Virus record (IMG/VR): IMGVR_UViG_3300026097_000876
Location: 186,001 to 250,000 of that record
Strand: one strand, 5' to 3'
Origin: a virus
Length of the DNA: 64,000 bases
The translations under genes were made by a program, and so were the position numbers. The notes under the pieces were generated by a model that was given only the letters and a program-made list of their open reading frames with translations, had not been told where the DNA came from and searched no databases. Below are positions 33,053 to 58,864 of this stretch, one piece after another; the stretch's first letter is position 1; the number at the start of each line of letters is the position of its first letter.

Positions 33053-33400
33053 ATGGATGACGCTCTAGAAAAGGCACTTGAATTCTCAAATTTTACAGCA
33101 ACCTTAAATAATCAAAAAAGAATACTTCATGAAAAATATACTGAAGAGCTTGGACTTTACTATTGCGGCGGTAAGTTTACAGTAACAAAAGAATTATTAA
33201 CGTTTTGTCATTTGCTTTTAAGTAAAGACATTTCAAAAACTGTAGTAATAGACGATAATAATTCTCCTATCCAAATTGATGACATTGATGATTTTATGAC
33301 AGTGTCATTACAACAATACGCAACTGCCGCTAACAAATATTTTGCGCATTATAAAGAACTTAGTACTAAACGGAGTGTTGAAGGTTTAGCAGATGTCTGA
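33053..33400 (+). CDS. Small conserved phage protein, unassigned
   Basis: A 115-residue, mostly helical, acidic protein (MDDALEKALEFSNFTATLNN; FTVTKELLTFCHLLLSKD; VVIDDNNSPIQIDDIDDFMT). It has no enzyme motif, signal peptide or membrane segment. Proteins of this look occur beside the fibre genes in marine T4-like phages and may be virion-associated. A good AGGAG site precedes its ATG. It is the first gene of the coupled operon and overlaps the first glycosyltransferase-like gene by 8 bases. Confidence 0.65.
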   Translation: MDDALEKALEFSNFTATLNNQKRILHEKYTEELGLYYCGGKFTVTKELLTFCHLLLSKDISKTVVIDDNNSPIQIDDIDDFMTVSLQQYATAANKYFAHYKELSTKRSVEGLADV

Positions 33401-44078: not shown

Positions 44079-44713
44079 TGTCAACCGATCAAATGGAAAA
44101 TAATTTTTTTAACCGAACTGAAGTAAATGTGGATATTGCATATAGATGTGCTCTTGACTGTCCGAGATGTCAACGTTGGAGGGTCTATAGAAAGCATAAC
44201 AAGAAAGTTCCAGGTTATGACATGACCATGACTGAGTTTAAAAGAATTGTCTCACACTTTACTGAAGTTAGTTTTTGCGGACAGTATTCTGATCCAATTC
44301 ATCATCCGAAATTTATTGATTTTCTAAAACTATGCAAGGATAAAGGTATAAAAGCATCTGTGCATAATGCATCATCTGCTAAATCAGAAGATTGGTATAT
44401 TCAAGCATTTAAAGCAAATCCCAATGCTCAATGGTTTTTTGGAATAGACGGGTTGCCTCATCAGAGCCATCAGTATAGAATTAATCAAGATGGCGTAAAA
44501 CTTTATAATATTATGCTAGAAGCAAAAAAGTATTTAAAAACAAAACCAATATGGCAGTACATCATTTTTAATTACAATGAAAATCATGTCGAAGAAGCTA
44601 AAAAAATGGCTGACGACGACGACGTCTATTTTATGTTAGTAAGATCTTCTAGGTGGGACCGAGACGATCCATTAATGCCTACTCTTAAAGAATATAAGTT
44701 AAATAGATTATGA
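44075..44713 (+). CDS. Short radical SAM enzyme, second split pair
   Basis: 212 residues. The cluster motif is CALDCPRC (Cys25, Cys29, Cys32), with FCGQYSDPIHHPKFIDFLKL, FGIDGLPHQSHQYRINQDG and IWQYIIFNYNENHVEEAKK. These match the gene at 39614 block by block, so both come from one duplication. It lacks a C-terminal auxiliary domain, which is encoded by the next gene with a 4-base overlap. Sandwiched between nitroreductase-like paralogues, it probably acts on the same substrate as these. Confidence 0.8.
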   Translation: MMSTDQMENNFFNRTEVNVDIAYRCALDCPRCQRWRVYRKHNKKVPGYDMTMTEFKRIVSHFTEVSFCGQYSDPIHHPKFIDFLKLCKDKGIKASVHNASSAKSEDWYIQAFKANPNAQWFFGIDGLPHQSHQYRINQDGVKLYNIMLEAKKYLKTKPIWQYIIFNYNENHVEEAKKMADDDDVYFMLVRSSRWDRDDPLMPTLKEYKLNRL

Positions 44714-45045
44714 CTGTAGAATTAAAACCAAAATGTTTTGAAGATCAGCAGATGGCTGTAACTAATAGAGGTCATTTAATACCTTGTTGTTATTGCGATA
44801 CTCAGCATACTATGAATGATTTAGAATTTCAAAAACTATTGAAAGTTAGCAAAATAAGCGACTATAACAGTATAGAAGAAATTTTGAATACAAACGAATG
44901 GAAAGAGTTTTATAAAAATCTGCAACAAAATATTGGGCCTCGTGCTTGTCAGACTGTCTGTGCTAAAAATAAAAAAGACCCGTTAAATATTAAAGAAATA
45001 GAAGACGGTCGAACAGGAAAAATTATACATACTAGAATTGCATAG
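44710..45045 (+). CDS. Stand-alone SPASM-like auxiliary Fe-S domain, second copy
   Basis: 111 residues. Cys9, then TNRGHLIPCCYCDT (Cys26, Cys27, Cys29), a central 'IEEILNTNEWKEFYKNL' helix and RACQTVCAKNKKD (two more cysteines). The pattern and helix match the SPASM-like gene at 39274. Here it follows its radical SAM partner, the normal N-to-C order of a fused enzyme, with an ATGA overlap. The pair could be the ancestral arrangement, split by a stop. Confidence 0.7.
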   Translation: MTVELKPKCFEDQQMAVTNRGHLIPCCYCDTQHTMNDLEFQKLLKVSKISDYNSIEEILNTNEWKEFYKNLQQNIGPRACQTVCAKNKKDPLNIKEIEDGRTGKIIHTRIA

Positions 45046-45064
45046 CAACATATGGAAGATTAAA

Positions 45065-45736
45065 ATGTTAGAAGAGTTAATGCTGAAAAGGCAACAAGTA
45101 AGATTTTTTGATAGAGAAAACTATCCTAGCGAAAAAATAATTTACTCAATCTTAGAAAAAACTTATCAAATAGTTCCATCTAAACAAAATTTAGTGCCTT
45201 ACAAAGTCCATGTGTTAGGTCCAAGCATGGAAGAACATAAAAGAGAGTTATATCTTTTATCTTCTAAACAACAGCTAGGTGACAAGTTAAATTATAACGA
45301 ACTTGCCAAACGTAATAGCGGAAATACACAGTTGTTGGCTCCTTATGTTCTACTTTTTGAAAAAAGATTACCAGAACCTAACGATTTTGTAAAAAAAGAA
45401 ATGCTCCTAGGACATAAATTTAATGAATGTTTGCCCGAACAACAAAGAAATCAAAGGATAGCTACAGCTATCGAGGTGGGTATGTTTACAGCAATGCTAT
45501 CTGGGTTTTGTATGGAGGAAGATATTTCTCTAAGTTATATAGGATGCCTTCCTGGAAACCCAGAAACCTACAAAAATAATCCTTCTGTCAATTTTGATTT
45601 TATCGAACAACACATTTTTTTAGGGATAGGCATAGGTTACCAAGACTATTCTATCGAAGAAAATCTTAGATTATCTCGTTTACAAAATTGTGGAGAGATA
45701 AAACCTAAAAGTGATAATGTAATTGTTAAACATTAA
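45065..45736 (+). CDS. Nitroreductase-like protein, paralogue 4 (most canonical)
   Basis: 223 residues from the ATG at 45065 (GGAAGA ten bases upstream); an upstream TTG would add nine residues without a site. It has the FMN-phosphate motif lost in the other copies (MLKRQQVRFFDRENYPS), then QIVPSKQNLVPYKVHVLGP, APYVLLFEKRLPEP, ATAIEVGMFTAMLSGFCMEE and ISLSYIGCLPGNPE, ending LGIGIGYQD. This is close to typical nitroreductases, and I expect it to bind FMN. It is the last gene before the perfect sigma70-type promoter. Confidence 0.75.
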   Translation: MLEELMLKRQQVRFFDRENYPSEKIIYSILEKTYQIVPSKQNLVPYKVHVLGPSMEEHKRELYLLSSKQQLGDKLNYNELAKRNSGNTQLLAPYVLLFEKRLPEPNDFVKKEMLLGHKFNECLPEQQRNQRIATAIEVGMFTAMLSGFCMEEDISLSYIGCLPGNPETYKNNPSVNFDFIEQHIFLGIGIGYQDYSIEENLRLSRLQNCGEIKPKSDNVIVKH

Positions 45737-45741
45737 TGGTG

Positions 45742-45770
45742 TTGACAATTCATATTAATTAGTGTATAAT
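45742..45770 (+). promoter_or_regulatory. Sigma70-type promoter, perfect consensus
   Basis: TTGACA (45742-45747), 17-nt spacer, TATAAT (45765-45770), in the 62-base gap between two genes of the same strand. The exact match to housekeeping consensus is rare by chance. It is placed for the radical SAM, carbamoyltransferase and methyltransferase genes, and divides the island into separately controlled parts. Confidence 0.9.
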
Positions 45771-45798
45771 ATAAGAAAATAAGTATAGGAAAATAAAA

Positions 45799-46635
45799 AT
45801 GTTTCTAACCCTTGAAGATTTAAAAGGTTCAGAATATCGTACAGTAGACTTTTATATGACAAAAAGTTGTAATAAGAGTTGCCATTATTGTACTGCATGG
45901 ACTCTTGAAATGCGTAATCTTGATGTTGACATGGATTTTTTGCGTACTATTTTAGAAGGTCTTGCTCCTTATAAAACACGTATTTGTTTGCTCGGCGGTG
46001 AACCTGGACTTGTTAAGAACTTAAGAGAAGTTATTGCCGAAATTAAAAAGTATCCCAATCTAGTAGTACAGGTACTTTCTAACAGTCTTATACGTAAATT
46101 TTATCCAGAAGTATTAGAAGATCCTGAGATTATTTACATCGAACATTTAGTGTTGGACTTTTACGAAGATCGAATTGAAAAGTTAGGTAACTATGATTTC
46201 TTTGAACCTAATGATCTAAACAATTATAATCTTATAATTGAAACACCTGGATACTTTGATTACAGAGACAAACATGATTTGTCTTATCTTATGCACAAAA
46301 ATACAGAATTTAAAGAATATAATTCACGCTCTCCGGATTTCTTTTCAGATCATAAAATTGTACAAGCGCCAGAAATTGAAAGACGAGTATGTGCTAAGTT
46401 TCCGCAAGTTCCTGTGTTTGATTTTGAAATACAAAAAATTAGACATTGTAGCAGGAAAGTTATTAACGGTAGCCGTCAATTTGATGTTACTAAAGAAAAT
46501 ATTGAAAAGATGATGAACTACGAACTTTTTGAATTCGAAAACTATTGCAAAGGTTGTATGGATATTATTCCTCCGAGGCCAGTAGCACGTAGATTAGAAA
46601 TATTAGAAAAAATAGCATTAGAAGATATCACATGA
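45799..46635 (+). CDS. Radical SAM enzyme with C-terminal Cys domain
   Basis: 278 residues. DFYMTKSCNKSCHYCTAW holds Cys24, Cys28, Cys31; ICLLGGEPGLVKNLREVI is the SAM-binding GGEP; VVQVLSNSLI the next strand. The C-terminal 90 residues carry a compact SPASM/twitch-like set (VCAKFPQVPVFDFEIQKIRH, then CSRK and ENYCKGCMDI). Small for a radical SAM-SPASM enzyme. Preceded by its own perfect promoter, with TAGGAAA as ribosome site. It overlaps the carbamoyltransferase by 4 bases, suggesting sequential steps. Confidence 0.85.
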   Translation: MFLTLEDLKGSEYRTVDFYMTKSCNKSCHYCTAWTLEMRNLDVDMDFLRTILEGLAPYKTRICLLGGEPGLVKNLREVIAEIKKYPNLVVQVLSNSLIRKFYPEVLEDPEIIYIEHLVLDFYEDRIEKLGNYDFFEPNDLNNYNLIIETPGYFDYRDKHDLSYLMHKNTEFKEYNSRSPDFFSDHKIVQAPEIERRVCAKFPQVPVFDFEIQKIRHCSRKVINGSRQFDVTKENIEKMMNYELFEFENYCKGCMDIIPPRPVARRLEILEKIALEDIT

Positions 46636-48095
46636 AGTTTTATGCAGTAGCCTTAAATATGCACGATCATAATACATATGACGGTGTAACACACTATCAA
46701 CTAGAAAGACACACCCGTGCTAAACATAATCTAAATTATAAAAATGTTCATGATCCAGAACCGAGTAAACGTTTTTTTGATAATTTTGTAAAGACTAATG
46801 ATAAAGTACTTTGCTTTACTGTTTCTAATCTAGGACAAGAATTTGTATTAGACCGGATTGAAAAAAAATTCGGAAAAGACTTTTTAAACTTCAGACCTAG
46901 CCATATCTGGGATTGTTATCATACCGATGATTTTTATTATATCGATCATCATCAAAGTCATGCTACCTATGCTCTTCTAAGTTCAGGATTTCCGGAAAGT
47001 GACATTCTTGCTATCGACGGCAGAGGTTGGCAATTTAATTGTATTTTTGTTAACAAAGAAGGAAGAATAAAAGATCTTACAGATGAATTATCTATTGGCG
47101 GACTTTGGAATAGGCTATCGCAAGATCTTGGTTTTGGATATTTAGGCGCAGGTAAAGTAATGGGTCTTGCTGGTTACGGTAAGTATGATCATAGGGTTCA
47201 CGCTATGTTAGAAGTATATCTCACTAATGATAATAACCTTCCTAACTGGTATAAAAAAATTATCGACAGCTGCAACAAAGAAGATATTGCTTTTACTCTA
47301 CAATATGTTACAGAAGAATTAATTAAAAAATATGTATATCCTCTCAAAACTAGTGACAATTTGTGTGTAGCAGGCGGAGTAGCATATAATGGCTACATGA
47401 ATGAGGAATTTACTAAACATTATAAAAACGTACATGTACCGCCTGCTGTTGGTGACGAAGGTCAGGCAATAGGTACTTACATGCATGCCGAATATGTAGT
47501 AAACGGAAATGTACACATTCCTTGTGTATACTCTGGTGTTGAACATAAGTACACACTACCAGATACATTTGAAGATTTGAATATCCCTAAACTGGCACAA
47601 CAAATAGCAGATGGCAAAATAGTAGGATGGTTCCAAGGAAAGAGTGAAAGTGGTAATAGAGCACTAGGCAATCGTAGTATACTTGCAGATCCACGCAATC
47701 CCGATATTAAAGATATTATTAACAGTAAGATTAAACTACGTGAAGACTTTAGACCGTTTGCTCCTAGCGTACTAGAAGAACATTATACAGAATATTTTGA
47801 TACTAATCAGCCATCGCCTTATATGAGCAGGATTGTAAAAGTTAAAGGTAACATCATACCGGGCGTAACTCACGTAGACAGTACAGCAAGGATTCAAACT
47901 GTTAATAAAACACAGAATCAAAAATTTTATGATTTAATTAACGAATTTTATAAAATTACAGGAGTTCCTATGTTACTTAACACAAGTTTTAACTGTCAAG
48001 AACCTATTGTAGAAACTCCGCACGAAGCATATGAAACTTATAACAAAACTTCTTTGGATATTCTTGTTATTAATGATAAAGTGATTGAAAAATGA
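46632..48095 (+). CDS. NodU/CmcH-type carbamoyltransferase
   Basis: 487 residues with the family's two-domain layout. The N-terminal Kae1-like part has YYIDHHQSHATYA (metal-site His106, His107, His110), DILAIDGRGW and VMGLAGYGKYD; the C-terminal YrdC-like/carbamoyltransferase domain has LCVAGGVAYNGYMNEEF, GDEGQAIGTYMHAE, GKSESGNRALGNRSILADPR and RPFAPSVLEEH. Relatives move carbamoyl from carbamoyl phosphate through carbamoyl-AMP onto hydroxyls of antibiotics and nodulation factors. Marine T4-like phages are known to carry such genes. The acceptor here is not evident; it is slightly shorter than typical (about 550). Confidence 0.9.
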   Translation: MKFYAVALNMHDHNTYDGVTHYQLERHTRAKHNLNYKNVHDPEPSKRFFDNFVKTNDKVLCFTVSNLGQEFVLDRIEKKFGKDFLNFRPSHIWDCYHTDDFYYIDHHQSHATYALLSSGFPESDILAIDGRGWQFNCIFVNKEGRIKDLTDELSIGGLWNRLSQDLGFGYLGAGKVMGLAGYGKYDHRVHAMLEVYLTNDNNLPNWYKKIIDSCNKEDIAFTLQYVTEELIKKYVYPLKTSDNLCVAGGVAYNGYMNEEFTKHYKNVHVPPAVGDEGQAIGTYMHAEYVVNGNVHIPCVYSGVEHKYTLPDTFEDLNIPKLAQQIADGKIVGWFQGKSESGNRALGNRSILADPRNPDIKDIINSKIKLREDFRPFAPSVLEEHYTEYFDTNQPSPYMSRIVKVKGNIIPGVTHVDSTARIQTVNKTQNQKFYDLINEFYKITGVPMLLNTSFNCQEPIVETPHEAYETYNKTSLDILVINDKVIEK

Positions 48096-48697
48096 TAGAC
48101 GAAATTATTTTTAGAAATGTACTAAAAGAAATTAAACAAAATTCAGAATATGCTGACGATATTATTGATTCATTCAGTGACAATCAGTTTATTGCTAAAC
48201 GCAAAGTTTTAGAATATGCTAATAGATTAAATATACTAGATAAAGATTCAGAAGTAATTATTTTTGGATCTTGGTACGGAAGTATTTTAATTCCTGGATT
48301 AGTTGATAAAGTAAAAAAAATTAGTTGTATTGATATTGACAAACGAGTTTTACAAACTGCAAAAAATAGATTCTTCAAAGATTATACCAATATAGATTAT
48401 ATTGCAGGCAACGTATTTGATTTAGATCTCAAAAGATATCACACGGCTAATCTTTTTATAAACACGTCGTGCGAACATATGCCGTCGATGAAGGAATTTT
48501 TATACTGGCCTGACCAAACCCATTTTGTCTTCACAAGTAATGATATGTTCAACATCGAAGGACACATAAATTGTGTAAACAGTTTAGATGAATTTAAAGA
48601 ACAATTGCCCGAACGTGCAGAAGTATTGTATGAAGAAGAAGTAGAGGATACCAGAGGCACACGTTATATACTAGTCGGAAAAATTAACGGTATTTAA
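48092..48697 (+). CDS. Class I SAM-dependent methyltransferase-like protein
   Basis: 201 residues with a Rossmann core: DSEVIIFGSWYGSILIPGL (motif I, with G.WYGS for the Gly loop), KISCIDIDKRVLQTAK (acidic loop Asp) and IDYIAGNVFDLDL. A later FINTSCEHMPSMKEFLYWPD provides the active-site side. The gene overlaps the carbamoyltransferase by 4 bases. Its 3' end runs 14 bases into the convergent ATP-grasp gene, so no terminator fits between. It should methylate O, N or C of a small molecule; target unknown. Confidence 0.75.
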   Translation: MIDEIIFRNVLKEIKQNSEYADDIIDSFSDNQFIAKRKVLEYANRLNILDKDSEVIIFGSWYGSILIPGLVDKVKKISCIDIDKRVLQTAKNRFFKDYTNIDYIAGNVFDLDLKRYHTANLFINTSCEHMPSMKEFLYWPDQTHFVFTSNDMFNIEGHINCVNSLDEFKEQLPERAEVLYEEEVEDTRGTRYILVGKINGI

Positions 48698-49931
48698 TTC
48701 GTATACTTCTTGTAAACTGATCTAATTTTTGATAAATTTCTTCTACAGTTTTGCCTAGTAGAATTAATTGTCCGTTTTGATGCCCTATACTTGCATTCCA
48801 ATTGTCTGGTATTACACTCTTAGAAGTTAGTGTGCTACTAAAATGATGTACACTTTCATCTGCCTCAGGCCAGTCGATACTTTCAATTGTTCCGGGTGCA
48901 AATCTAAATTGTTTTCCTAAAGAATAATTAAACTGCGTATCATGTTTTTGCGTAAAGTCTGAAATATAGTCTTTCGAATTTAGCTTAACTAATTCTCGAG
49001 TTACATTATAACCGTATATTTTATGAAAACTTGTTGCAGTATGACTACTACCAGGACGCAAATTAGTTTCAATTACGTTAATTACATTTAAATCTTTATC
49101 GTAAAAAAATTCTGTTCGTAGAGCACCGTTTTTGATTTCGAGAACATCTGTTAGTTGTTGTAAAATTGATAGTACTTCGTCTGTTAAGAATTTTGGATCA
49201 CTAGGGAACAATGCTTCTTCGTAATAGAAATAAGGTAATCTTTCTTGCTCTAATTTGCTTTTTTGATCTCTAGCATAATGTGTGTAAGGTTTAATTATAC
49301 CGTCTTGTACATAACAGTTTACACCACTAAAATAATCAGCATCTGTATATTGTTGAACTAGATAATAATCATATTTCTTATCTAAATTCCATCCATTTGA
49401 ACGATCTTGATCATCCATGAATGATTTTAATTCAGCTGCATTATGTATTTGTTTAATTCCGTTGCTTCCTGCCCCGTAGTTAGGTTTTACAATACAGGGA
49501 TACTCCAATGTTGATAAGTCTTTAATTTCGTCATATCGATAGGACCAGTCTGGTCTAGGCAAATTTTGATTTTCTAATAATTTATGCCATGCTTCTTTAC
49601 TTGCACAGTGTGTTGCAGCAACTTCTCCAATGCCCTTAAATCCCATACGAGTGTTTACACATGCCATAGCCATGCTAGCATCGTTAGTACATGGGTGTGT
49701 AACAGTCATACTAGCGCCACTAGTTTTTGCAAGATTTACTAATGCATCGATATCCATATAACTTATAATATGAAATTCGTCTATCATGTCTTTTACTGTG
49801 TCGTAATAGTATTTGCTAGTAATATCCATAGGATGTGTTGCTACTATTTTATATCCAAGTGCTTGTGCTTCTCGCATATAAAGATAACTATCATCAAAAA
49901 CACCAATGTGTAATGCTACTTTATCCGCCAT
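48684..49931 (-). CDS. ATP-grasp ligase
   Basis: 415 residues in the carbamoyl-phosphate-synthase-like branch. YPCIVKPNYGAGSNGIKQI is the ATP-grasp loop (near residues 145-165), YYLVQQYTDADYFSGVNCYV the second ATP strand, and INVIETNLRPGSSHTA provides the metal-binding Glu-x-Asn. The first 110 residues are a pre-ATP-grasp Rossmann domain (VALHIGVFDDSYLYMREAQA). Such enzymes join a carboxylate to an amine or thiol via acyl phosphate. It is the last of the six-gene minus operon and overlaps the B12-type radical SAM gene by 11 bases. Confidence 0.85.
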   Translation of the reverse strand: MADKVALHIGVFDDSYLYMREAQALGYKIVATHPMDITSKYYYDTVKDMIDEFHIISYMDIDALVNLAKTSGASMTVTHPCTNDASMAMACVNTRMGFKGIGEVAATHCASKEAWHKLLENQNLPRPDWSYRYDEIKDLSTLEYPCIVKPNYGAGSNGIKQIHNAAELKSFMDDQDRSNGWNLDKKYDYYLVQQYTDADYFSGVNCYVQDGIIKPYTHYARDQKSKLEQERLPYFYYEEALFPSDPKFLTDEVLSILQQLTDVLEIKNGALRTEFFYDKDLNVINVIETNLRPGSSHTATSFHKIYGYNVTRELVKLNSKDYISDFTQKHDTQFNYSLGKQFRFAPGTIESIDWPEADESVHHFSSTLTSKSVIPDNWNASIGHQNGQLILLGKTVEEIYQKLDQFTRSIRIKYR

Positions 49932-51375
49932 AAATATCTCTTATATCTTTGCCTGTAATTTTTTTATATCGTTCTACTAGAAATGTTGGTGAGTCTAACG
50001 CAAATTTGTAACCTAAATCTCTGCAATGATTGCGTAATCTAAACCATCTTTCAATTCTTACTTTTTGTGTGTTATCACCGATTTCCCATGCTCCTACATC
50101 GTCATAGTCTACACCCATTTCTTGAAACTGATCGAATAGCGGCGTGCCTGGATAGATTCGCATAGTTGCTCCGAGACTGACTTGAAAAACTGTTCCATCT
50201 TTTGCATACTTGGCATTTCGAGTAAACATGTCCATAGTTTCTTGAAATTCTTCCTCGCCTTCGCCCGGGTATCCAATTAGCATCATCATTACAGTATCGA
50301 TGCCGTTTTTAGAACATTGTTCCAAAGTGTAGTCAATATCAACAGCTCTAGCACCCTTTTTCATTGCATTAAGAACTTTTTGACTGCCGCTCTCGATACC
50401 TAACAGCATTCTAGTACATCCGCTCTTTGATAACTTTTCGTATATTTCTGGACCTTGCGAATTAGGAGGTCTCACAATAAATTGTCCTCCCCATTTTACA
50501 CCATCTAAATTTTCTTCAATGAGTGTGTCCATCATTGCATCCATTTGGGGAATATTACCGTTTAGTAAACTATCTGTAAAATAAAACTCTTTTATTCCTG
50601 GATGCGTCTTAACTTGATGTATAATTTCTTTTGCAATAGTTACTCCGCTTTTACTAGTAAAAGATGGCCAGCGTTTGCCTACATCACAAAACTTACAACG
50701 TCTAATACACCCTCTACTTCCAGTTAAGTATAACAGATCTGTTCCTTTTGGATCTTCAAATGGATCTCTAAACAAATGACTATATTGTGACAAGTCATAA
50801 TCTGTATAATCAGCAAACGGAAGTGAATCTAACTCTTTCATCTGTATAGGAAACTTTCCGTTTATTCCTGGATAGTCTGTATTTCCGTTAAGCAGATGTA
50901 GTATAGGATTTTCTCCTTCTGCTTCCACATATGCATAAATTCTATCTTGTTTAAGATTAGTAGGCCCGTAATCAGGTGATGCACCCGGTCCTCCTAATAT
51001 AACTTTAACTTCGGGCAATCTAATAAGTATTTCGTCTAAGAACAAGTCACACATTACAAGTTGCCAATGACTTAATAATGTTATACCAACAAACTTTGGA
51101 TTATAACCTGCAATTTTCTCTACAGCCTGTTCTACTAACGGAACAAATATATGTTTAACTTTTTCAAAATATTTCTTGTTAATTAGTGTTTGGTCGTTGT
51201 CTAGCCAAAGATGAGCATATTCGTCTTTTACAATATTCCAAAATTCTACATTAAAGTCAATACATTTACTAGTATAACCATGTTCTTCGACAACTGCCTT
51301 TAGTGCTGCTGGCCCAATAAGAGGGCTTTGTACTTCAAATTTTGGAATACTAATAAAAACAATATCTTTATTCAT
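49921..51375 (-). CDS. B12-binding-type radical SAM protein
   Basis: 484 residues. The N-terminal 190 residues form a cobalamin-binding-like domain (VFISIPKFEVQSPLIGPAAL, HGYTSKCIDFN, VGITLLSHWQLVM, VILGGPGASPDYGP), without an obvious DxHxxG. The radical SAM centre is GCIRRCKFC (Cys223, Cys227, Cys230), followed by KEFYFTDSLLNGNIPQMD, MLLGIESGSQKVLNAMKKGA and IDTVMMMLIGYPGEGEEEF. It is a paralogue of the gene at 56271, with cysteines at the same residue numbers. B12-type enzymes methylate unactivated carbons or rearrange skeletons. It overlaps the permease gene by 8 bases. Confidence 0.85.
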   Translation of the reverse strand: MNKDIVFISIPKFEVQSPLIGPAALKAVVEEHGYTSKCIDFNVEFWNIVKDEYAHLWLDNDQTLINKKYFEKVKHIFVPLVEQAVEKIAGYNPKFVGITLLSHWQLVMCDLFLDEILIRLPEVKVILGGPGASPDYGPTNLKQDRIYAYVEAEGENPILHLLNGNTDYPGINGKFPIQMKELDSLPFADYTDYDLSQYSHLFRDPFEDPKGTDLLYLTGSRGCIRRCKFCDVGKRWPSFTSKSGVTIAKEIIHQVKTHPGIKEFYFTDSLLNGNIPQMDAMMDTLIEENLDGVKWGGQFIVRPPNSQGPEIYEKLSKSGCTRMLLGIESGSQKVLNAMKKGARAVDIDYTLEQCSKNGIDTVMMMLIGYPGEGEEEFQETMDMFTRNAKYAKDGTVFQVSLGATMRIYPGTPLFDQFQEMGVDYDDVGAWEIGDNTQKVRIERWFRLRNHCRDLGYKFALDSPTFLVERYKKITGKDIRDIYGG

Positions 51376-52114
51376 AAGTTCGATTTACCCTTCCTAAGTA
51401 TATGAGAACAGCATATACTATAGTAGTTATCACACTTACTGATAAGACACTTGGACTAATGATGTCAGTAACATAACTCCACATAATAATTGGAAGAGTT
51501 TGAGTACTATGATCTAATAACAACAACGCTACAATAAACTCGTCAAAACTAGTAATAAACGCAAGAGAACATCCTGCAAGCAATCCGGGCAACATAACTG
51601 GAAGTTGTATATCTTTTAATATTTGAAAACTATTTGCACCGCATAGTCTAGCACTTTTTGCAATATTTTCATCATAGTTATTTAGACTACTTAGCGTCAT
51701 TAAAATTACATAAGGAACACATAAAACAGTATGTGCTATAATAAGATTGATAAAACTGTTAGTAAACCCTATATCATTAAAAAAGAAAATCCAGCCAAGG
51801 CCAATAATGATACTCGGTATTACAATAGGACTGATTATTACACTTAGAACTATTCCGTTTCTATATTGGTTCAACCACAACGCCGCAGGAACAGATAGTA
51901 GTATACAACTAATAACAGTATATGCTCCTACTTGAAAACTAGTTACAATACTTTTATACCACATAGGATCTGTAAATAATTGGTTATACCATTTCAAGCT
52001 GAACTCAAAATCAGAAATTTTAAAATAGTTTCCACCGTCAACGCTAAACAAAATAATAACCAACATAGGCATTAACAAATATAAGAACATGCCATAAGCA
52101 AATAATCTAAGCAC
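51368..52114 (-). CDS. ABC transporter permease, PotC-like
   Basis: 248 residues from the GTG at 52112-52114, chosen because AAAGGAG lies just before it and it interlocks with the previous gene's stop; a longer frame from ATG 52150 has no site. About six transmembrane segments. The EAA loop is in DENIAKSARLCGANSFQILK, followed by DIQLPVMLPGLLAG. The SFDEFIVALLLLD strand is typical of PotC. With its neighbours it forms the inner-membrane pore of a polyamine-class (MOI/PotABCD) importer. Confidence 0.85.
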   Translation of the reverse strand: MLRLFAYGMFLYLLMPMLVIILFSVDGGNYFKISDFEFSLKWYNQLFTDPMWYKSIVTSFQVGAYTVISCILLSVPAALWLNQYRNGIVLSVIISPIVIPSIIIGLGWIFFFNDIGFTNSFINLIIAHTVLCVPYVILMTLSSLNNYDENIAKSARLCGANSFQILKDIQLPVMLPGLLAGCSLAFITSFDEFIVALLLLDHSTQTLPIIMWSYVTDIISPSVLSVSVITTIVYAVLIYLGRVNRTYE

Positions 52115-53093
52115 GGGCGTCTCCTTTAAAGTTAATACGATAATAAACATAAAACAACATTAAACTAGTTGATAGCATAATAACTGTTAGCGCACTTGCT
52201 AGGCCCCAGTTTAATGTATATTGAACTTGTCTAATTATTTGTTCTGTAACAAACAGGCCTTTACTTCCACCTAACAGACTTGGAGTAATATAGTATCCAG
52301 TAACACTCATAAATGTTAGTATGGTGCTGTTTGCAATACCTTTGATTGTTTGCGGCAAATACACATATCTAAATGTTTGAAATTTATTAGCACCTGAAAT
52401 TGTACTTACTTTAATTAAATCGTTATTAACATTTTTCATAGCAAGATATATAGGTAATACACTTAGTGGCAGTGCGATATATACACTGCCTATATAAATT
52501 GCTGTAATTGTATTCATAAGATCGAAAGGTTGTAACAATAATATCCAACTAACTGTACGACTTAAGAAGCTACTAAACAGCGGAATCAACACAACAAATA
52601 GTGCAATCTTAGCTGCTTTGCCTTTTAGTTTAGTAAGATAATATGCAAGAGGATACGCTACTACTAAGCAAATGGCTGTAATAATTGCACTAAGAAGATA
52701 TGTCCTTCCTATAACTTTTAAGTATAAGTCGTTAAATGCACGTTTAAAATTAGCAAATGTATAAGGCTTTACTTCTTGTTCTATTACACTCCAAAATGCA
52801 GGGTCTTGCCATCCAGGGTGTTCTAAACCTTTTCTAAACATACTTCGTGTTTTGTGATAGTGATGATTAAGGTAGGTGATAGATCTACGACTGTCCTCAC
52901 GGGCTAAGTCACTTTTTATAGCTTCAGTCCGGTCTCCGCCGTTAACTACGTAGTCGGTTATGTTTGGAAGATAACGTTCAACAGTTGTGTTGTAAACACT
53001 ATTTTTAAGAATTTCACCTAGTGGAAGGAGAAAGAACACTGCTAGAAAAAATACTAGCGGTATAATCTTTCCATGTTTCGCAAACAAATTCAT
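52107..53093 (-). CDS. ABC transporter permease, PotB-like
   Basis: 328 residues. A first hydrophobic segment (residues 10-30) is followed by a long periplasmic loop (about 35-110), then five more membrane segments (e.g. TYLLSAIITAICLVVAYPLA) and the coupling loop LIKVSTISGANKFQTFRYV. The extended loop is a known feature of PotB-like proteins in marine alphaproteobacteria. The start overlaps the ATPase gene by 80 bases, unusually long, but AGGAG ten bases before the ATG supports it. Stop and next start interlock. Confidence 0.85.
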   Translation of the reverse strand: MNLFAKHGKIIPLVFFLAVFFLLPLGEILKNSVYNTTVERYLPNITDYVVNGGDRTEAIKSDLAREDSRRSITYLNHHYHKTRSMFRKGLEHPGWQDPAFWSVIEQEVKPYTFANFKRAFNDLYLKVIGRTYLLSAIITAICLVVAYPLAYYLTKLKGKAAKIALFVVLIPLFSSFLSRTVSWILLLQPFDLMNTITAIYIGSVYIALPLSVLPIYLAMKNVNNDLIKVSTISGANKFQTFRYVYLPQTIKGIANSTILTFMSVTGYYITPSLLGGSKGLFVTEQIIRQVQYTLNWGLASALTVIMLSTSLMLFYVYYRINFKGDARA

Positions 53094-53757
53094 TTACAAA
53101 ATCACTCCTAGGATTATCAAGAATTTCTGTAGGACTGCCTACTTGCTCTACTTTTCCTTGATTCATAATAACAATAGTGTCGCACATATTAAATGCTTCA
53201 GTGAAGTCGTGTGTGACGTACACTACTGTTGTATTTTTAAGTAGCTGTTTAATATCTTTTTGTAATTTAATTCTTAGCTTTAAGTCTAGCGATGCTAAAG
53301 GTTCGTCCATTAGTATAACATCTGGATTATATACTAATGCCCTTGCAATTGCAACTCGCTGTTGTTGCCCACCGCTTAATTGTTTAGGATATTTATCAGC
53401 ATGTTCTTCCATTCCTATAACATTTAAAATATTAGATACAGCGGATGTATTCTTGCCTTTTACTCTCAATGGATATGCTATATTTTCATAAGCAGTCATA
53501 TTAGGAAATAAACTAAAGTTTTGAAACACCATTCCTAGTGGTCTTTTATTACTACTTAGGCTAGTAATATCCAAACCGTTAACTATTACTTGTCCACAGT
53601 CTGGTGTTTCAAACCCTGTAATGCAATTAAGTAGGGTACTTTTGCCGCTGCCACTAGGTCCTAGAACAGCGACATTCGATCCAGAAGAAACATTAAAAGT
53701 TACATCATCGAGAACTTTATCTCGAAATGTTTTGCTAATGTTCTTTATTTCTAGCAT
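53014..53757 (-). CDS. ABC transporter ATP-binding protein, PotA-like
   Basis: 247 residues, a complete nucleotide-binding domain: Walker A GPSGSGKST (residues about 33-41), Q-loop GMVFQNFSLFPNMTAYEN, signature LSGGQQQR, Walker B VILMDEPLASLD and H-loop VYVTHDFTEAF. It is shorter than typical PotA (about 370) because the C-terminal OB regulatory domain is absent; the last 20 residues are Ser-rich. All catalytic residues are intact, so transport is expected to be active. It starts at a TAATG overlap with the binding-protein gene. Confidence 0.9.
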   Translation of the reverse strand: MLEIKNISKTFRDKVLDDVTFNVSSGSNVAVLGPSGSGKSTLLNCITGFETPDCGQVIVNGLDITSLSSNKRPLGMVFQNFSLFPNMTAYENIAYPLRVKGKNTSAVSNILNVIGMEEHADKYPKQLSGGQQQRVAIARALVYNPDVILMDEPLASLDLKLRIKLQKDIKQLLKNTTVVYVTHDFTEAFNMCDTIVIMNQGKVEQVGSPTEILDNPRSDFVNEFVCETWKDYTASIFSSSVLSPSTR

Positions 53758-54842
53758 TAGTCTAAGAGCCAGGCTTCCCAGCGTTCATTGATGCGTTCGC
53801 CATTGTCAGCCCACCATGCGCCGTCACGTGGAATGCTACCAGTATAGTTATTAGGGTTAGTAACCATTTCGGCTTCCATGTCTGATCCAGTGTCTACCGA
53901 AGTCCAGTTGCCTGAATTTAAATCAATTGAACTCTTACGTGTAGGCGAGTAAGGAATAATACGACTAATTAGTGCTAGTGTTTCTGTACTAGTAGCATGT
54001 TGCAAAAACGCCTTTACTTCAGGAGTCATTTGTCCTTTTGCTACTACCCAAGGAGAAACTGTATAAATTTGTGCATCCCAAATTTGCTCAATGCTTTGTC
54101 CGTCTACGTTCTTGGCTTTCCAAAAACGTCCATTATAGCTTGCTAAAATTTGTACTTGTCCTGCACTCAATTGTTGAATACCAGCGGCTGCTTTGTCCCA
54201 CCATACAATATGATCTTTAATAGTATCTAACTTAGCAAATGCACGATCGAGTCCTTCGTCAGTTGCTAGTACATCACGTACAATGTTTCGATCCACTCCA
54301 TCGGCAATCAGTGCCCATTCTAAGTTATTGTAAGGACGGCGTTGTAATCCTCGCTTTCCTGGAAACTGTTCAACATCAAATACATCGTAAATTGTTTGTG
54401 GTGCGTTGTTAGCGTATGTTTCTGGATCGTATCCAAACTGAATACTGTATACTGCCTGTGGTGCCACACAATCTTTTAGCATACCAGGAAGAAAGTCCTC
54501 ACTAGGTAGTGTACCGTCTGGTGCAGGCAGCAACACATCGTCGTGATTAAAGTTTTCTACTAAACCGTCTTCGCATGCAATAGCAAGTGCTTCCTGAGGA
54601 ATATCAATTACATCATATGTAATGTTTCCTGTTTCAATTTGTGTACGCAATGCTGCTAGTGCAGAGTGTGCATTTTTGATAACGTTTACAGTTACATCTG
54701 GATTCTGCTCAATAAACGGATCAATTGCTGCTCTTTGTTGTGCTTCGCCCCATGCACCGCCATAATTTACAATATTTACAGTACTGTCAGCATATGCTGA
54801 ACTTGCAACAAGTGCTAGAACTGTCATAAAGGTATATTTCAT
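53757..54842 (-). CDS. Periplasmic substrate-binding protein, PotD-like
   Basis: 361 residues beginning with a short Sec signal (TFMTVLALVASSAYA, cleavage after residue 18). The mature start STVNIVNYGGAWGEAQQRAA and the following DVIDIPQEALAIACEDGLV are typical of PotD/PotF family 1 solute-binding proteins; IVWWDKAAAGIQQLSAGQVQ and PWVVAKGQMTPEVKAFLQHA are later family landmarks. It would capture a cationic or amino compound in the periplasm and deliver it to the two permeases. First gene of a six-gene minus operon; AGGAG precedes the ATG and a near-consensus promoter lies upstream. Confidence 0.9.
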   Translation of the reverse strand: MKYTFMTVLALVASSAYADSTVNIVNYGGAWGEAQQRAAIDPFIEQNPDVTVNVIKNAHSALAALRTQIETGNITYDVIDIPQEALAIACEDGLVENFNHDDVLLPAPDGTLPSEDFLPGMLKDCVAPQAVYSIQFGYDPETYANNAPQTIYDVFDVEQFPGKRGLQRRPYNNLEWALIADGVDRNIVRDVLATDEGLDRAFAKLDTIKDHIVWWDKAAAGIQQLSAGQVQILASYNGRFWKAKNVDGQSIEQIWDAQIYTVSPWVVAKGQMTPEVKAFLQHATSTETLALISRIIPYSPTRKSSIDLNSGNWTSVDTGSDMEAEMVTNPNNYTGSIPRDGAWWADNGERINERWEAWLLD

Positions 54843-54916
54843 TTCATCTCCTGTAAGTCTTACTATAGTAATTATCTACGTATATAACTTAGATATTTAC
54901 TTCTGACATACTAATA

Positions 54917-54945
54917 ATAATACTACAATCAGCTCTAGTAGTCAA
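54917..54945 (-). promoter_or_regulatory. Sigma70-type promoter for transporter operon
   Basis: Minus-strand TTGACT (54940-54945), 17-nt spacer, TATTAT (54917-54922). One mismatch per hexamer and ideal spacing. It is 75 bases upstream of the PotD-like ATG, leaving a leader of about 70 bases that holds AT-rich sequence but no hairpin I can see. Confidence 0.75.
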
Positions 54946-54962
54946 CTGTTTTATCGAGCATA

Positions 54963-54968
54963 TATAAT
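54963..54968 (+). promoter_or_regulatory. -10 element for a possibly leaderless transcript
   Basis: TATAAT ends five bases before the ATG at 54974. A transcript starting at the usual 7 bases downstream would begin at or next to the start codon. There is no Shine-Dalgarno and no good -35 at 17 bases (AGTCAA). It faces away from the transporter promoter. Confidence 0.45.
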
Positions 54969-54973
54969 ATACA

Positions 54974-55828
54974 ATGTCATATAAAGTAACACATAATCAC
55001 CATCTTAGCGTTCGCAAAACAACAGATTATATTGTAAAATTAGGTCGTTGTGAGAACATGCCTATGGATTTTAAATCTGAAGCATTACGAGCTGCTAAGT
55101 TAATAGCAAAAGAATCTAATAATATATGGATTAGTTACAGCGGCGGTATAGACAGTGAGTTTATTATTCAAGTGTTTCTTGAAGCAGGCATCCAATTTAG
55201 AGTTGCCACAATTGTTATGAAAGACGGATCTAACGATTACGATCTACAGCACAGTAGAAATTTTTGTAAACGTATGGGTATCAAGCTACACGAATTTGAA
55301 ATTGATTTAGAAGAGTTTTATAAAAATGATCTAGAAACATATGCTGTTGCAACTAATTGTATTAGTCCACAGTTTCCGGTGCATATGTGGTTATGGGATC
55401 AACTAGATGGATTTATAGTTGCAGGCCACGGTGATCCAATCTTTAAACGTAAAGATTCTAGATGGTATCTTCAAATTCAAAAAAAAGAAGACAGCGTATT
55501 TAGATATGCTCAGTGGAGAAATAGAAACATGGCTCCGGGATTTTACGTATATACTCCGGAACTTCTACTAAGTTTTATGCTAGAAAAAGAAGTAAGTAAT
55601 ATGTTTATTGCTCCTAAGTTAGCAGGGTTAAGAGATATTGCACAAGTCAAACATCTGGTTTATTCTAAATATTACGATATGGTCGAAAGAGAAAAAAGAA
55701 CTGGCTTTGAGTTAGTAGATAACTTAAACAATGAATATAAAATACATTTAGAAAATACAATACCCGGACATGGCGTATTTCTACAATCAGTAGAAGACCT
55801 ATTACATAGAATTTGGCCTAAACTATGA
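54974..55828 (+). CDS. PP-loop (N-type) ATPase, asparagine-synthase/QueC-like
   Basis: 284 residues. The P-loop is ISYSGGIDSEFIIQVFLEAG (SGGxDS near residues 57-62), with VATIVMKDGSNDYDL as the second strand and IKLHEFEIDLEEFY as the third. PP-loop enzymes adenylate a carbonyl or carboxylate, allowing amide, guanidino or nitrile formation. WLWDQLDGFIVAGHGDPIF is the late family region. No glutaminase domain is attached. Start: no ribosome site, -10 adjacent, probably leaderless. The last codons overlap the GNAT gene (ATGA). Confidence 0.8.
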   Translation: MSYKVTHNHHLSVRKTTDYIVKLGRCENMPMDFKSEALRAAKLIAKESNNIWISYSGGIDSEFIIQVFLEAGIQFRVATIVMKDGSNDYDLQHSRNFCKRMGIKLHEFEIDLEEFYKNDLETYAVATNCISPQFPVHMWLWDQLDGFIVAGHGDPIFKRKDSRWYLQIQKKEDSVFRYAQWRNRNMAPGFYVYTPELLLSFMLEKEVSNMFIAPKLAGLRDIAQVKHLVYSKYYDMVEREKRTGFELVDNLNNEYKIHLENTIPGHGVFLQSVEDLLHRIWPKL

Positions 55829-56274
55829 TTATTAAACAAGTAGATTTTGAAACAGTGTTACCTGCGTGGGAAAACAATCTTTGGCCTAATCGCAAAGATC
55901 CTATTAAACCTACAAATAATATTTGTTATCTAGGTGGAAGAGATAAAGATATTAATAATCAAACACCTGTATTTTTTGCCGTGTACGATAATAAAACTAT
56001 AGTAGGTGTAAACAGCGGCTTTCCTACACTACACGGAGGATTTCGTAGTAGAGGTATTTGGGTTGATCCGGCATATAGAGAAAAAGGTGTTGGGGCAATG
56101 TTGCTAAATGCTGTAATTGATTATGCTCGAGAGAATGAATATTCTTATGCATGGAGTATGCCAAGACAAAGTGCTCTATCAGCATATACTAATGTAGGCT
56201 TTGAGCAAACAAGCGATTTTTTTGACGAAGGCGTAGAGTTTGGTCCTAACTGTTTTGTAAGGATTGATCTATGA
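55825..56274 (+). CDS. GNAT-family N-acetyltransferase
   Basis: 149 residues, full GNAT length. RSRGIWVDPAYREKGVGAML holds the acetyl-CoA pyrophosphate loop (R.KGVG), preceded by a FFAVYDNKTIVGVNSG strand pair; YSYAWSMPRQSALSAYTNVG, then FEQTSDFF, is the C-terminal arm. It would acetylate an amine. Overlaps of 4 bases on both sides place it in one transcript with the PP-loop and radical SAM genes. Confidence 0.8.
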   Translation: MIIKQVDFETVLPAWENNLWPNRKDPIKPTNNICYLGGRDKDINNQTPVFFAVYDNKTIVGVNSGFPTLHGGFRSRGIWVDPAYREKGVGAMLLNAVIDYARENEYSYAWSMPRQSALSAYTNVGFEQTSDFFDEGVEFGPNCFVRIDL

Positions 56275-57743
56275 CTGATGTAGTTTTAGTTACTTTACCT
56301 AAAATGGAAATTAGAGCACCCTTAATTGGCCCGGCTGCTCTTAAAAGTATATGCGAAGCAGATGGGTACTCTGTACATTGCGTTGACTTTAATATCGAAC
56401 TATATCATCAATTGCGAACACAAGTTCCTGAATGGTGGATTTATAATGATCAAACATTTATGCAAGACGATTTATTTGACGAAGCATGGACTACTATATT
56501 AGAACCTATAGTTCACAGCTGGTGTAAAAAACTACAAGACCTAAATCCTAAAGTAATTGGTGTTACAGTATTAAGCATGTGGACCGAACGTATCTGTAAT
56601 AAGTTTTTGCAAACACTAGAATTATATTGTCCAGATACCCGTGTAGTATTAGGGGGACCGGGAACACAGCCAGCATATGGTCCAAAGATGCTAGAAGCAA
56701 AAAAAATTGATGCATACATTACAGGCGAAGGCGAAGTTAGTTTTTTAGAATATCTTAGAGGCAACAAATATTATCCTGGAATAAATGGCAATCCTGCTGA
56801 ACAGATTGGAGATATGAATACATTACCGTTTCCTGACTATAGTGATTTTGATTTATCAAAATATAGCAGCACTTGGTGGGAACCTCACAAAGAGCCAACA
56901 GGGTGTAAATGGTTGTATATTACAGGCACTCGGGGGTGTATTAAGCGATGCACTTTTTGTAATGTAGGATCAATATGGCCAAAGTTTGTTAGCAAAACAG
57001 GTGAAACTATTGCTAAAGAAATAAAACATTATATGGATACTACAGGAGTAACTCACTATTATTTTACTGACAGTTTACTCAATGGTAATGTAAAGAATCT
57101 AGAAGAAATGGTAGACGCTATTATTTCTTTAGGTATTAAGCCTACTATAAAAGGACAATGGATTGCTCGTGGTAAAGATTTAATTAATAGTGAGCTATGG
57201 AAAAAGATGGGCAGAGCAGGTTTCAAACAACTCTTAGTGGGTATCGAAAGTGGAAGTTATAAAACACGCAACGAAATGAAAAAGGGTGTTAGAGAAGAAG
57301 ATATAGAATATACATTTGAACAAGCAAGCAAAAACAAAATTAGATGTATACCGTTGCTTATGGTAGGATATCCAACAGAGACAGCAGAAGATTTTGAGGA
57401 AAATATTAAATTTTGGACTAGGTATAAAAAATATAATGACAATGGTACTATTCTAAAACCTAGTGTGATGGCAACGAATATTTTACCAGACACTCCTCTA
57501 CATCATAAATTTACCGGAAACGGACTAGAGTATGACGATTTAGGTAACTGGGTATATAAAGACAACACTATGAAAGTTCGAATCGAACGCTGGTTTAGAT
57601 ATCGAGACGAGGCACATCGCTTAGGTTATGAACTTACTTTAGATACTCCTAAACATCTCATAAGAGAATACAAGCGTATTACTGGAATAGATCTTAGTGA
57701 AGAATACAAACTCAAAGATACAGAAGAAATATGGAATGATTGA
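56271..57743 (+). CDS. B12-binding-type radical SAM protein, paralogue
   Basis: 490 residues, homologous over its length to the minus-strand gene at 49921: VTLPKMEIRAPLIGPAALKS, YSVHCVDFNIELYHQ, VVLGGPGTQPAYGP, GTRGCIKRCTFCNVGSIWPK (Cys223, Cys227, Cys230), THYYFTDSLLNGN, LLVGIESGSYKTRNEMKKG and RCIPLLMVGYPTETAEDF. The C-termini also match (RIERWFRYRDEAHRLGYEL). Two copies on opposite strands in one island suggest consecutive or alternative carbon modification steps. It overlaps the GNAT gene by 4 bases. Confidence 0.85.
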   Translation: MTDVVLVTLPKMEIRAPLIGPAALKSICEADGYSVHCVDFNIELYHQLRTQVPEWWIYNDQTFMQDDLFDEAWTTILEPIVHSWCKKLQDLNPKVIGVTVLSMWTERICNKFLQTLELYCPDTRVVLGGPGTQPAYGPKMLEAKKIDAYITGEGEVSFLEYLRGNKYYPGINGNPAEQIGDMNTLPFPDYSDFDLSKYSSTWWEPHKEPTGCKWLYITGTRGCIKRCTFCNVGSIWPKFVSKTGETIAKEIKHYMDTTGVTHYYFTDSLLNGNVKNLEEMVDAIISLGIKPTIKGQWIARGKDLINSELWKKMGRAGFKQLLVGIESGSYKTRNEMKKGVREEDIEYTFEQASKNKIRCIPLLMVGYPTETAEDFEENIKFWTRYKKYNDNGTILKPSVMATNILPDTPLHHKFTGNGLEYDDLGNWVYKDNTMKVRIERWFRYRDEAHRLGYELTLDTPKHLIREYKRITGIDLSEEYKLKDTEEIWND

Positions 57744-57770
57744 TACATATTTAATAAAGGATTAAACAAT

Positions 57771-58373
57771 ATGATAAACACACTTTATAAAGTACCAATT
57801 TGGATACAAGACAATACATTGCCGCAAGATAAATTAGATATGCTAGAACAAGCATGCTACGACAAGTGTCAACCATTGTCAGATTATCCAGATGAATTTA
57901 ATCCTGATATTTTTAAATTTTCTCGTTCTAACAAAATAAATGTTCATACGGAGCCTGAATTTAAAGAAGTTACTAACTTAATGTTAACAGCCGCAAGAAA
58001 TATGATGTTAGAAATGAGTTACACACAAGAACAGGCTCAGCGTCTTAGAATTGTTAACAGCTGGTTTGCAATATATAAAAATAAAGATAATCTACCTATG
58101 CATACACACCGTGATAGTTTCTTTTCAGGAGCATATTATATTAAAGATGTTACAGATTGTAAATTACGATTTATTCATGACATCTATAGAAATACACCTT
58201 ACCCAGAAGATTTACATAATGAATGGGGCAAAAATGTTACAGACTTTGATTGTAAAGACGGACGAATTATTATATTTCCTAGTGACTGTATACACGGAAT
58301 TGATCAGCTTAATAGTAATAAGCCCGATAATGAACCTATTAAAGTTATGTTATCGTATAATTTTAATTTTTAA
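57771..58373 (+). CDS. 2-oxoglutarate/Fe(II) oxygenase-like protein
   Basis: 200 residues of the phage/bacterial 2OG-Fe(II) family with the TIGR02466-like layout. The metal site is likely the His and Asp of MHTHRDSFFSGAYYIKD (HxD) and the distal His in IIFPSDCIHGI; the co-substrate side is near PIKVMLSYNFNF. Such enzymes hydroxylate or desaturate; phage copies are frequent in marine T4-like genomes. ATAAAGGATT precedes the ATG. Its TAA shares TTAA with the stop of the convergent minus-strand gene. Confidence 0.75.
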   Translation: MINTLYKVPIWIQDNTLPQDKLDMLEQACYDKCQPLSDYPDEFNPDIFKFSRSNKINVHTEPEFKEVTNLMLTAARNMMLEMSYTQEQAQRLRIVNSWFAIYKNKDNLPMHTHRDSFFSGAYYIKDVTDCKLRFIHDIYRNTPYPEDLHNEWGKNVTDFDCKDGRIIIFPSDCIHGIDQLNSNKPDNEPIKVMLSYNFNF

Positions 58374-58864
58374 ACACAGGCAACAATATGAATTCGATCC
58401 TCAAAACTTCCGTTTAATGCTAGGTGCTTTAATCTAGTATCTAACCAATATAAATGACCTACTGATTCCATTCTTAATATTTCTTCGTCTACTATAAACA
58501 TACAATTATTATTTGTAGTTACAGGAATATGCATTCGCGGGGTTGGATCTGTGTGATATGAATAACATTCTTTAGAGCGCAGTGTCATTACTCTAGTTCT
58601 ATATAAATTATTTTCTTTAATAATACTATTAATATATGGTATATCGTAGTAACATTCGGTAATATCTGTTTCTTCAAAATGTGTTTTAGCAGTTCTTTCT
58701 TTGTTTATAGGATCAAACACATCAAAATCACCTCTCCATGTTTGTAGATTATTGTTAGAATTTATAGCGTAGTTAATACTTTCTAATTCACTAATAATCT
58801 TTTCAACATCATATTTTTTGCCTGTTTTTATAAATTTATTCACGTACCTTTTCCCTTCGGACAT
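58370..58864 (-). CDS. Asp/Asn beta-hydroxylase-like 2OG oxygenase
   Basis: 164 residues. YSYHTDPTPRMHIPVTTNNN is the metal and co-substrate block (HxD plus the RxHIP that binds 2-oxoglutarate), HLYWLDTRLKHLALNGSFED supplies the distal His, and RIHIVACV ends it. This is the compact phage form of the Asp/Asn hydroxylase family (PF05118-like). It probably hydroxylates a small molecule. The 5' end overlaps the SDR gene by 25 bases; its ATG is preceded by CCGAAGGGAAAAGG. Confidence 0.75.
   Translation of the reverse strand: MSEGKRYVNKFIKTGKKYDVEKIISELESINYAINSNNNLQTWRGDFDVFDPINKERTAKTHFEETDITECYYDIPYINSIIKENNLYRTRVMTLRSKECYSYHTDPTPRMHIPVTTNNNCMFIVDEEILRMESVGHLYWLDTRLKHLALNGSFEDRIHIVACV

Follow-up and report, generated by a model that had tools for sequence, protein, structure and literature searches.

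Genomic Organization of the Importer Operon

The DNA analyzed here, a stretch of 64,000 nucleotides (the window), corresponds to bases 186001–250000 of the 261,806-bp virus record IMGVR_UViG_3300026097_000876 and harbors on its minus strand, at positions 48684–54842, an operon of six overlapping genes encoding a complete ATP-binding cassette (ABC) importer and two enzymes. The gene for a periplasmic solute-binding protein (SBP) of the SBP_bac_8 family (361 amino acids, aa; 53757–54842) is followed by those for the importer ATPase (247 aa; 53014–53757), permease 1 (PotB/PotH-like, 328 aa; 52107–53093), permease 2 (PotC-like, 260 aa; 51368–52150), a radical SAM enzyme with a B12-binding domain (rSAM1; 49921–51375) and an ATP-grasp ligase-like enzyme (415 aa; 48684–49931). 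The open reading frames (ORFs) overlap by 11 nt (ATP-grasp/rSAM1), 8 nt (rSAM1/permease 2), 44 nt (permease 2/permease 1), 80 nt (permease 1/ATPase) and 1 nt (ATPase/SBP), and Pfam assigned all six to these classes. The ORF coordinates, overlaps of 1–80 nt and Pfam assignments bear out the arrangement given in a preliminary description of this DNA. PF13416, PF00528 (twice) and PF00005 were each matched above their cut-offs, which places all four subunits of a type-I ABC importer in one operon.

The operon is contiguous with phage structural genes on a single record: the window itself encodes baseplate, tail-lysozyme and tail-fiber proteins, and genes for portal and major head proteins lie to its left. 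The baseplate protein matched 65 phage records, of which the 15 listed showed 34–37% identity and included Atu_ph07 (490 kb) and GAP32 (359 kb). It had 392 confirmed relatives in virus contigs; among the 80 kept (57–100% identity in the best segment), the 100% match was an identical twin contig of the window. This contig, IMGVR_UViG_3300007609_001041 (71,988 bp), which may share reads with the window, was 100% identical to window positions 38687–64000. The flanking contiguity for which the preliminary description had wanted a check is thus supported, since this span covers both suspected junctions (48.69 and 54.9 kb). Third-position GC was 0.20–0.27 in the six operon genes and 0.19–0.25 in eight of nine core genes (0.39 in the ninth). 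All six are thus genuine, intact ORFs on phage DNA.

The T4 late-promoter octamer occurred 4 times in the window against 12.5 expected, promoter- and terminator-like matches were found at chance-level counts, and tRNA and Rfam searches gave zero matches inside the window. The divergent intergenic region of 131 bp (54843–54973), lying between the importer operon and plus-strand genes for a PP-loop protein, a GNAT protein and a second radical SAM enzyme (rSAM2), showed promoter-like matches on both strands, at or below the number expected by chance for the scanned stretch.

The Binding Protein and Its Altered Pocket

The SBP carries a signal peptide ending AYA/D (judged by eye, with no predictor), and it matched no NCBIfam model. 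The top Foldseek match of its structure model (predicted local distance difference test, pLDDT, 93.3) was the SAR11 PotD in complex with γ-aminobutyrate (GABA; PDB 8jv1), which is the best match in both sequence and structure (34% identity over 338 residues; Z 42.0 on structural re-alignment) and shares with the phage protein the pocket Arg as well as two sequence stretches, NGRF and WDAQ. Z was 33.7–37.1 for the remaining GABA, opine and near-kin chains, with Atu4243, Pf622 (iGABASnFR), MotA and AgtB in the same structural subgroup, and about 26–28 for the spermidine/putrescine proteins PotD and PotF. E. coli PotD and PotF were not among the sequence matches of the SBP, even at an E value of 10. 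By sequence and by fold, the nearest proteins are those of the GABA/opine-binding subgroup and not PotD/PotF; the best match bears the name PotD and was solved with GABA. The preliminary description had called the protein PotD-like with a signal peptide; its subgroup has to be corrected. As a statement about the ligand, its term "PotABCD-like" is not supported, as PotD and PotF gave lower Z values than the GABA/opine group and the NCBIfam scores (below) lie under their cut-offs. The label "PotD-like/polyamine" should therefore change. In a study of Pseudomonas, three SBP_bac_8 proteins predicted for spermidine/putrescine actually bound GABA and/or 5-aminovalerate, which were the better ligands (PMC11113362).

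The GABA site of iGABASnFR2 is reported to consist of W9, T13, F100, Y102, W202, R205, D228 and Y264 (PMC12999171). The alignment maps these onto Y27, W31, A130, Y132, Y236, R239, S263 and Y298 of the phage SBP. Arg205 and Tyr264 of Pf622 are hence retained, and W9, T13, F100 and D228 are changed to Y27, W31, A130 and S263, respectively. The last of these is the Asp that holds the amino group of GABA, and the phage protein lacks it. The 8jv1 protein has Glu at position 263 and Trp/Tyr at 27/31, where the phage protein has Ser and Tyr/Trp. In 91 aligned bacterial SBP rows (85 from 80 genome loci and 6 from plasmids), the pocket Arg was retained in 88, and position 263 was Asp in 85, Glu in five and Asn in one (a Vibrio plasmid, L110). 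Among the 90 rows having a letter there, Tyr27 was found in none and Trp31 in one (L112). The two closest phage relatives (L194 and L195, described below) also have Tyr27 and Trp31, with Thr at 263 and Asp at the next position. Judged from the alignment, the amine end of the site is altered and the Arg end retained in the clade formed by the window, L194 and L195. A changed specificity of the phage SBP is likely, because the amine-site Asp is replaced by Ser/Thr. Owing to S263, GABA itself is not claimed as the ligand; homology favors an amino-carboxylate over a simple polyamine.

The ATPase and the Permeases

The ATPase contains the Walker A, Q loop, LSGGQ, Walker B, D loop and H loop motifs. 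Along with the baseplate, tail, portal and head genes on the same record, this upholds the description of the importer as complete, with its motifs intact, and as phage-borne. The phrase "all motifs", accurate for nucleotide binding, needs the correction that the protein is a short form of 247 aa in which no TOBE domain was matched; the same library detected TOBE_2 in the ATPase of another phage contig, L196. In NCBIfam, the nearest models were PotB and PotC for the permeases and PhnT2, followed by polyamine PotA models, for the ATPase, all far below the curated cut-offs (bits against equivalog cut-offs: PotA 256.3 vs 482, PotB 118.1 vs 348, PotC 110.7 vs 326). PHROGs families matching the permeases and the ATPase already exist (phrog_1577 and phrog_293). 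Compared with E. coli PotABCD, the phage importer has an equal part list, the same importer type and distantly related permeases and ATPase, and it differs in the binding protein (Z 26–27 for PotD/PotF), the missing TOBE domain and the NCBIfam scores below cut-off.

Permease 1 has 328 aa, against 409 aa in L196 and a bacterial median of 424 aa (ORF lengths measured from the first start codon). If translation began far downstream, the protein would lose its first hydrophobic segment, which occupies residues 10–28. Its start overlaps the end of the ATPase gene by the 80 nt at 53014–53093, in a different frame. In permease 2, the EAA loop pattern gave no match.

Relatives in Bacteria

The scan of bacterial genomes with the SBP returned at least 597 stretches, of which 558 were confirmed and 80 kept; these showed 39–46% identity and were nearly all titled Alpha- or Gammaproteobacteria or subgroups thereof. 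The order ATPase-SBP-permease-permease was found in 69 of the 80 loci, with these as the sole transport genes seen in 52, and the remaining 11 were partial or different. The phage order, SBP-ATPase-permease-permease, occurred in none of the 80 and was annotated on one Mesorhizobium and one Rhizobium plasmid. No best match to the radical SAM, ATP-grasp, GNAT or PP-loop proteins of the window was present at any of the 80 loci (BLASTP, E 1e-6), which measured up to about 17 kb and were in several cases cut by contig ends. Ten proteins around three of them (L119, L118 and L116) gave no consistent hint of a ligand. The ATP-grasp enzyme had weak matches in 65 of 369 genomes of the class of Grimontia, the two best by E value at 26–27% identity. 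Transfer of the six genes as a block from bacteria is rejected as far as tested, given the absence of the enzymes from the 80 loci and the weakness of these ATP-grasp matches.

In the SBP tree, the window, L194 and L195 formed one clade (Shimodaira–Hasegawa-like approximate likelihood ratio test, SH-aLRT, 100), and the nearest proteins by path were from Vibrionaceae and Halomonadaceae. The tree splits the phage SBPs into two groups; two separate gains are not claimed, because the topology with all seven phage SBPs as one lineage was not rejected (approximately unbiased test, p-AU 0.158). The repeated tree and the topology test left out L201 (a duplicate of L196), L117_7204, L121_6006, L166_5080, L158_5194 and L140_3471. 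In the first SBP tree and in the permease and ATPase trees, L201 carried a bacterial label.

Relatives in Phages and a Recurrent Gene Module

Scans of virus contigs with single proteins (SBP, ATP-grasp, permease 1 and rSAM1) found the identical contig only. When the SBP alignment was used as the query, six contigs with related SBPs (L194–L199) were obtained in addition. Identity to the window SBP was 62% for L194, 59% for L195 and 33% for L196.

L194 and L195 carry a gene run in one direction in which the SBP gene is preceded by a hydroxylase-like gene and followed by a GNAT gene and then a PP-loop gene cut by the contig end. The window counterparts are the PP-loop ATP pyrophosphatase (284 aa; 54974–55828, plus strand; Pfam and motif check), the GNAT acetyltransferase (149 aa; 55825–56274, plus strand) and an aspartyl/asparaginyl hydroxylase-like protein (58370–58864, minus strand). 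The GNAT kin directly after the SBP are 41–43% identical to that of the window, and the PP-loop kin, two genes after the SBP, 51% over 213 residues; the hydroxylase-like homologue directly before the SBP shows 40% over 77 residues in L194 and 29% over 119 in L195. Querying virus contigs with a PP-loop alignment retrieved the identical contig and the L194 and L195 records only. The SBP, GNAT, PP-loop and hydroxylase-like genes thus occur together in three phage contigs, and a B12-radical SAM gene in two of the three, as none was seen on the 10-kb locus of L195. Since L194 and L195 carry the SBP beside the same genes as the window does, SBP-GNAT-PP-loop is regarded as a recurrent cargo module. 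Between L194 and L195, the ratio of nonsynonymous to synonymous substitution rates (dN/dS) was 0.08 for the SBP, 0.16 for GNAT and 0.02 for the PP-loop protein; all three are under purifying selection.

The L194 record shares further genes with the window: five tail genes with their order conserved (identity 81% for one and 33–41% for four), the first cargo genes, the B12-radical SAM enzyme (39%) and both genes of 58370–59292. The second of these encodes a small protein (58840–59292, minus strand) 57% identical to L194:6900–7325, which has a weak short-chain dehydrogenase match. The first cargo genes past the tail fibers lie in the same order in both records.

Of the six SBP-bearing virus records other than the window and its twin, one had the permease family. 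That record, L196 (IMGVR_UViG_3300027971_002725), encodes a second complete ABC importer (L196:7968–12158), and its contig also matches phage DNA polymerase and exonuclease families (PHROGs). Like the importer of the window, it comprises an SBP, two permeases and an ATPase; it differs in gene order (SBP-permease 1-permease 2-ATPase), in having a TOBE domain and in its more distant SBP with Asp at position 263, and its 17-kb locus has no ATP-grasp or radical SAM match. L197, whose record holds a baseplate homologue (39%), and L198 carry an SBP and no permease, and L199 terminates within the SBP. The permease family was not found in 50 related (baseplate-bearing) phage records drawn from the 80 loci, which is weak evidence of absence because many of these are short fragments. 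The SBP was found in none of 32 kin records, in a run without a positive control.

The INPHARED phages gave zero matches for the SBP, ATP-grasp and PP-loop proteins. For permease 1, 28 INPHARED records matched with identities up to 33.5%, no alignment covering 80% of the query, and these are counted neither way on rarity. As judged from the contigs compared here, a complete importer in a phage is uncommon, not unique. The statement in the preliminary description that such importers are very rare in phages is accordingly softened: the permease counts agree with it and the importer of L196 speaks against it. The same six-gene order, which it had suggested as a search target, was found neither in the 80 bacterial SBP loci nor in another phage among the virus contigs scanned. 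A narrow, partial survey of the literature by titles and the openings of abstracts gave no report of a phage with a complete PotABCD-like importer, and no claim to a first report is made.

Neighboring Enzymes and the Cargo Zone

rSAM1 scored above the cut-offs for the B12-binding domain (PF02310, 32.9 vs 32.1 bits) and radical SAM (PF04055, 70.7 vs 29.5), and its cluster motif CxxxCxxC reads CIRRCKFC (residues 223–230). rSAM2 (56271–57743, plus strand) is 45% identical to rSAM1, with a B12-domain score of 30.8, just under the Pfam cut-off (32.1). Radical SAM matches were found in 12 other virus loci at 27–39% identity and among plasmids in 113 cases, the ten listed at 23–26%; on these figures, the nearest kin found are in phages. 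Within INPHARED, rSAM1 matched Streptomyces phage SF3 alone (two records, 24%). The nearest named NCBIfam families of the radical SAM proteins are P- and C-methyltransferases, far below their cut-offs, so that methylation by these enzymes is a guess. The ATP-grasp enzyme scored above the cut-off for the ATP-grasp domain (PF13535, 30.7 vs 27) and contains the catalytic stretches KPNYGAGS and ETNLRPG, in keeping with a carboxylate-amine ligase; no NCBIfam cut-off was reached, and its single-sequence structure model (pLDDT 39) was set aside. A defense-system library searched with seven proteins gave a single weak candidate-family match, for rSAM2.

The operon lies in a cargo zone rich in radical SAM genes, as seen in kin phages; further such cargo occupies window positions 33053–48697 and 54974–58373. 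Radical SAM genes are also located at 36423, 39614, 44075 and 45799 (two under the Pfam cut-off), and the window record has six radical SAM matches in all, four of them over the cut-off. Other cargo genes encode a DegT aminotransferase (40923), nitroreductase-like proteins (41993 and 43398), a NodU/NolO-like carbamoyltransferase (46632), a protein with a weak methyltransferase match (48092) and a 2-oxoglutarate-Fe(II) oxygenase-like protein (57771–58373, plus strand). Among the kin records, 14 of 50 had any radical SAM match and individual records up to 12, with 8–12 matches each in contigs L017, L044, L052 and L063 (records G010, G030, G035 and G039). Such arrays in phages are not new, as PMC5332604 reports 12 radical SAM genes in the T4-like ocean virus TARA_ERS488813_N000010, likewise a large virus rich in these genes; the word "transporter" is absent from its main text.

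Elsewhere on the record, a single ORF of 4986 aa (11045–26005) lies between the baseplate and tail-fiber genes, and the protein at 59710–60705 has a major-tropism-determinant N-terminal domain and a tail-fiber match. A QueE-like radical SAM gene is located at L237:3888–4784 (G000:C1:253888–254784), which we take as a possible sign of 7-deazaguanine chemistry.

Possible Function of the Phage Importer

The explanation favored here, and given an even chance, is a type-I ABC importer, carried as cargo by a jumbo phage, that would supply phage tailoring enzymes with an amino-carboxylate. Support for the importer is good, and the ligand and the coupling are suggested by homology and by gene linkage. 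In the infected cell, all four subunits (the periplasmic binding protein, both membrane proteins and the ATPase) would be made from phage genes. These would bring in a small carboxylate bearing an amine, similar to GABA, 5-aminovalerate or an opine but with shifted specificity, which could serve as substrate of the ATP-grasp, PP-loop, GNAT and radical SAM enzymes. By activating, ligating, acetylating and methylating it, the enzymes might build a phage-specific small molecule or modification. Phage-made import is considered the best explanation because four intact subunits, a phage-like composition and an SBP both selected and altered come together, and its service to neighboring enzymes is suggested by the linkage of the SBP to GNAT and PP-loop genes. 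An extended version is tentative and rather improbable: a wholly phage-encoded import-and-build pathway joining a re-specialized importer of an external amino-carboxylate to ATP-grasp, PP-loop, GNAT and cobalamin radical SAM enzymes, in which the binding-protein/tailoring module would be older and the full importer a later gain. The product would then be a phage-specific molecule or a modification of DNA, tail or envelope, and the full importer would free the phage from host permeases.

Several observations weigh against import for phage enzymes. The ligand assignment rests on homology; PA4985, one of the Pseudomonas proteins mentioned above, bound spermidine weakly (PMC11113362), and the protein of 8jv1 itself is reported to function in the uptake of polyamines by SAR11 (PMC8437039). 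In bacteria, the amine-site Asp has exceptions (five Glu and one Asn), and it is present in the phage SBPs of L196–L198 (Gly in the partial L199). The L194 and L195 records contain no permease, so that, over the length of these contigs, a phage importer is not required by their enzymes, and a search without a positive control found the ATP-grasp gene in none of the six SBP-bearing virus records. Because the cargo zones of kin phages are crowded with radical SAM genes, adjacency is a weak sign that the enzymes share a pathway. The window permeases and ATPase are represented by a single distinct sequence and sit on very long branches, so that the trees do not resolve their position.

The principal rival, a serious possibility at about one chance in three, is a plain nutrient gene set: the importer would raise uptake of nitrogen- or carbon-rich solutes such as GABA or polyamines, and the neighboring enzymes would be unrelated cargo. 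A role of this kind is commonly ascribed to phage PstS. SAR11 PotABCD is credited with the uptake of several polyamines used as nitrogen sources (PMC8437039), the bacterial relatives are located in ordinary uptake operons, and four other virus contigs (L194, L195, L197 and L198) have the SBP without a permease. On the other side stand the GNAT and PP-loop genes adjoining the SBP in L194, L195 and the window, and the altered binding site of this clade. Acquired importer genes that decay without a role are unlikely; the long permease and ATPase branches, the short ATPase lacking TOBE and the shortened permease 1 could be taken in that sense, but every frame is open, the motifs are retained, third-position GC is phage-like and the SBP is under purifying selection in the sister phages.

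A role in the cell envelope, with a membrane or periplasmic protein hindering superinfection or altering the infected cell surface and not acting in metabolism, appears very improbable: nothing direct favors it beyond the start of the cargo zone beside tail-fiber genes, and transport is the role indicated by an ATPase whose motifs are intact and a pocket that retains its Arg and Tyr. Least probable of all is a chimeric assembly or bacterial contamination. A strand switch at each operon end and the fact that the six-gene order was found in no other phage among the scanned virus contigs would fit it, but the identical second contig crosses both junctions, third-position GC is phage-like, and the nearest SBPs are from other phage contigs (57–62% identity) and not from bacteria (at most 46% in the 80 loci kept).

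The metabolic genes of viruses usually encode one enzyme or one binding protein, which relies on host partners. The importer, the SBP/tailoring link in three contigs and the unusual binding site suggest that some jumbo phages may choose what the infected cell takes up. As a soluble protein, the SBP and its ligand would offer a handle on the targets of phage radical SAM arrays.

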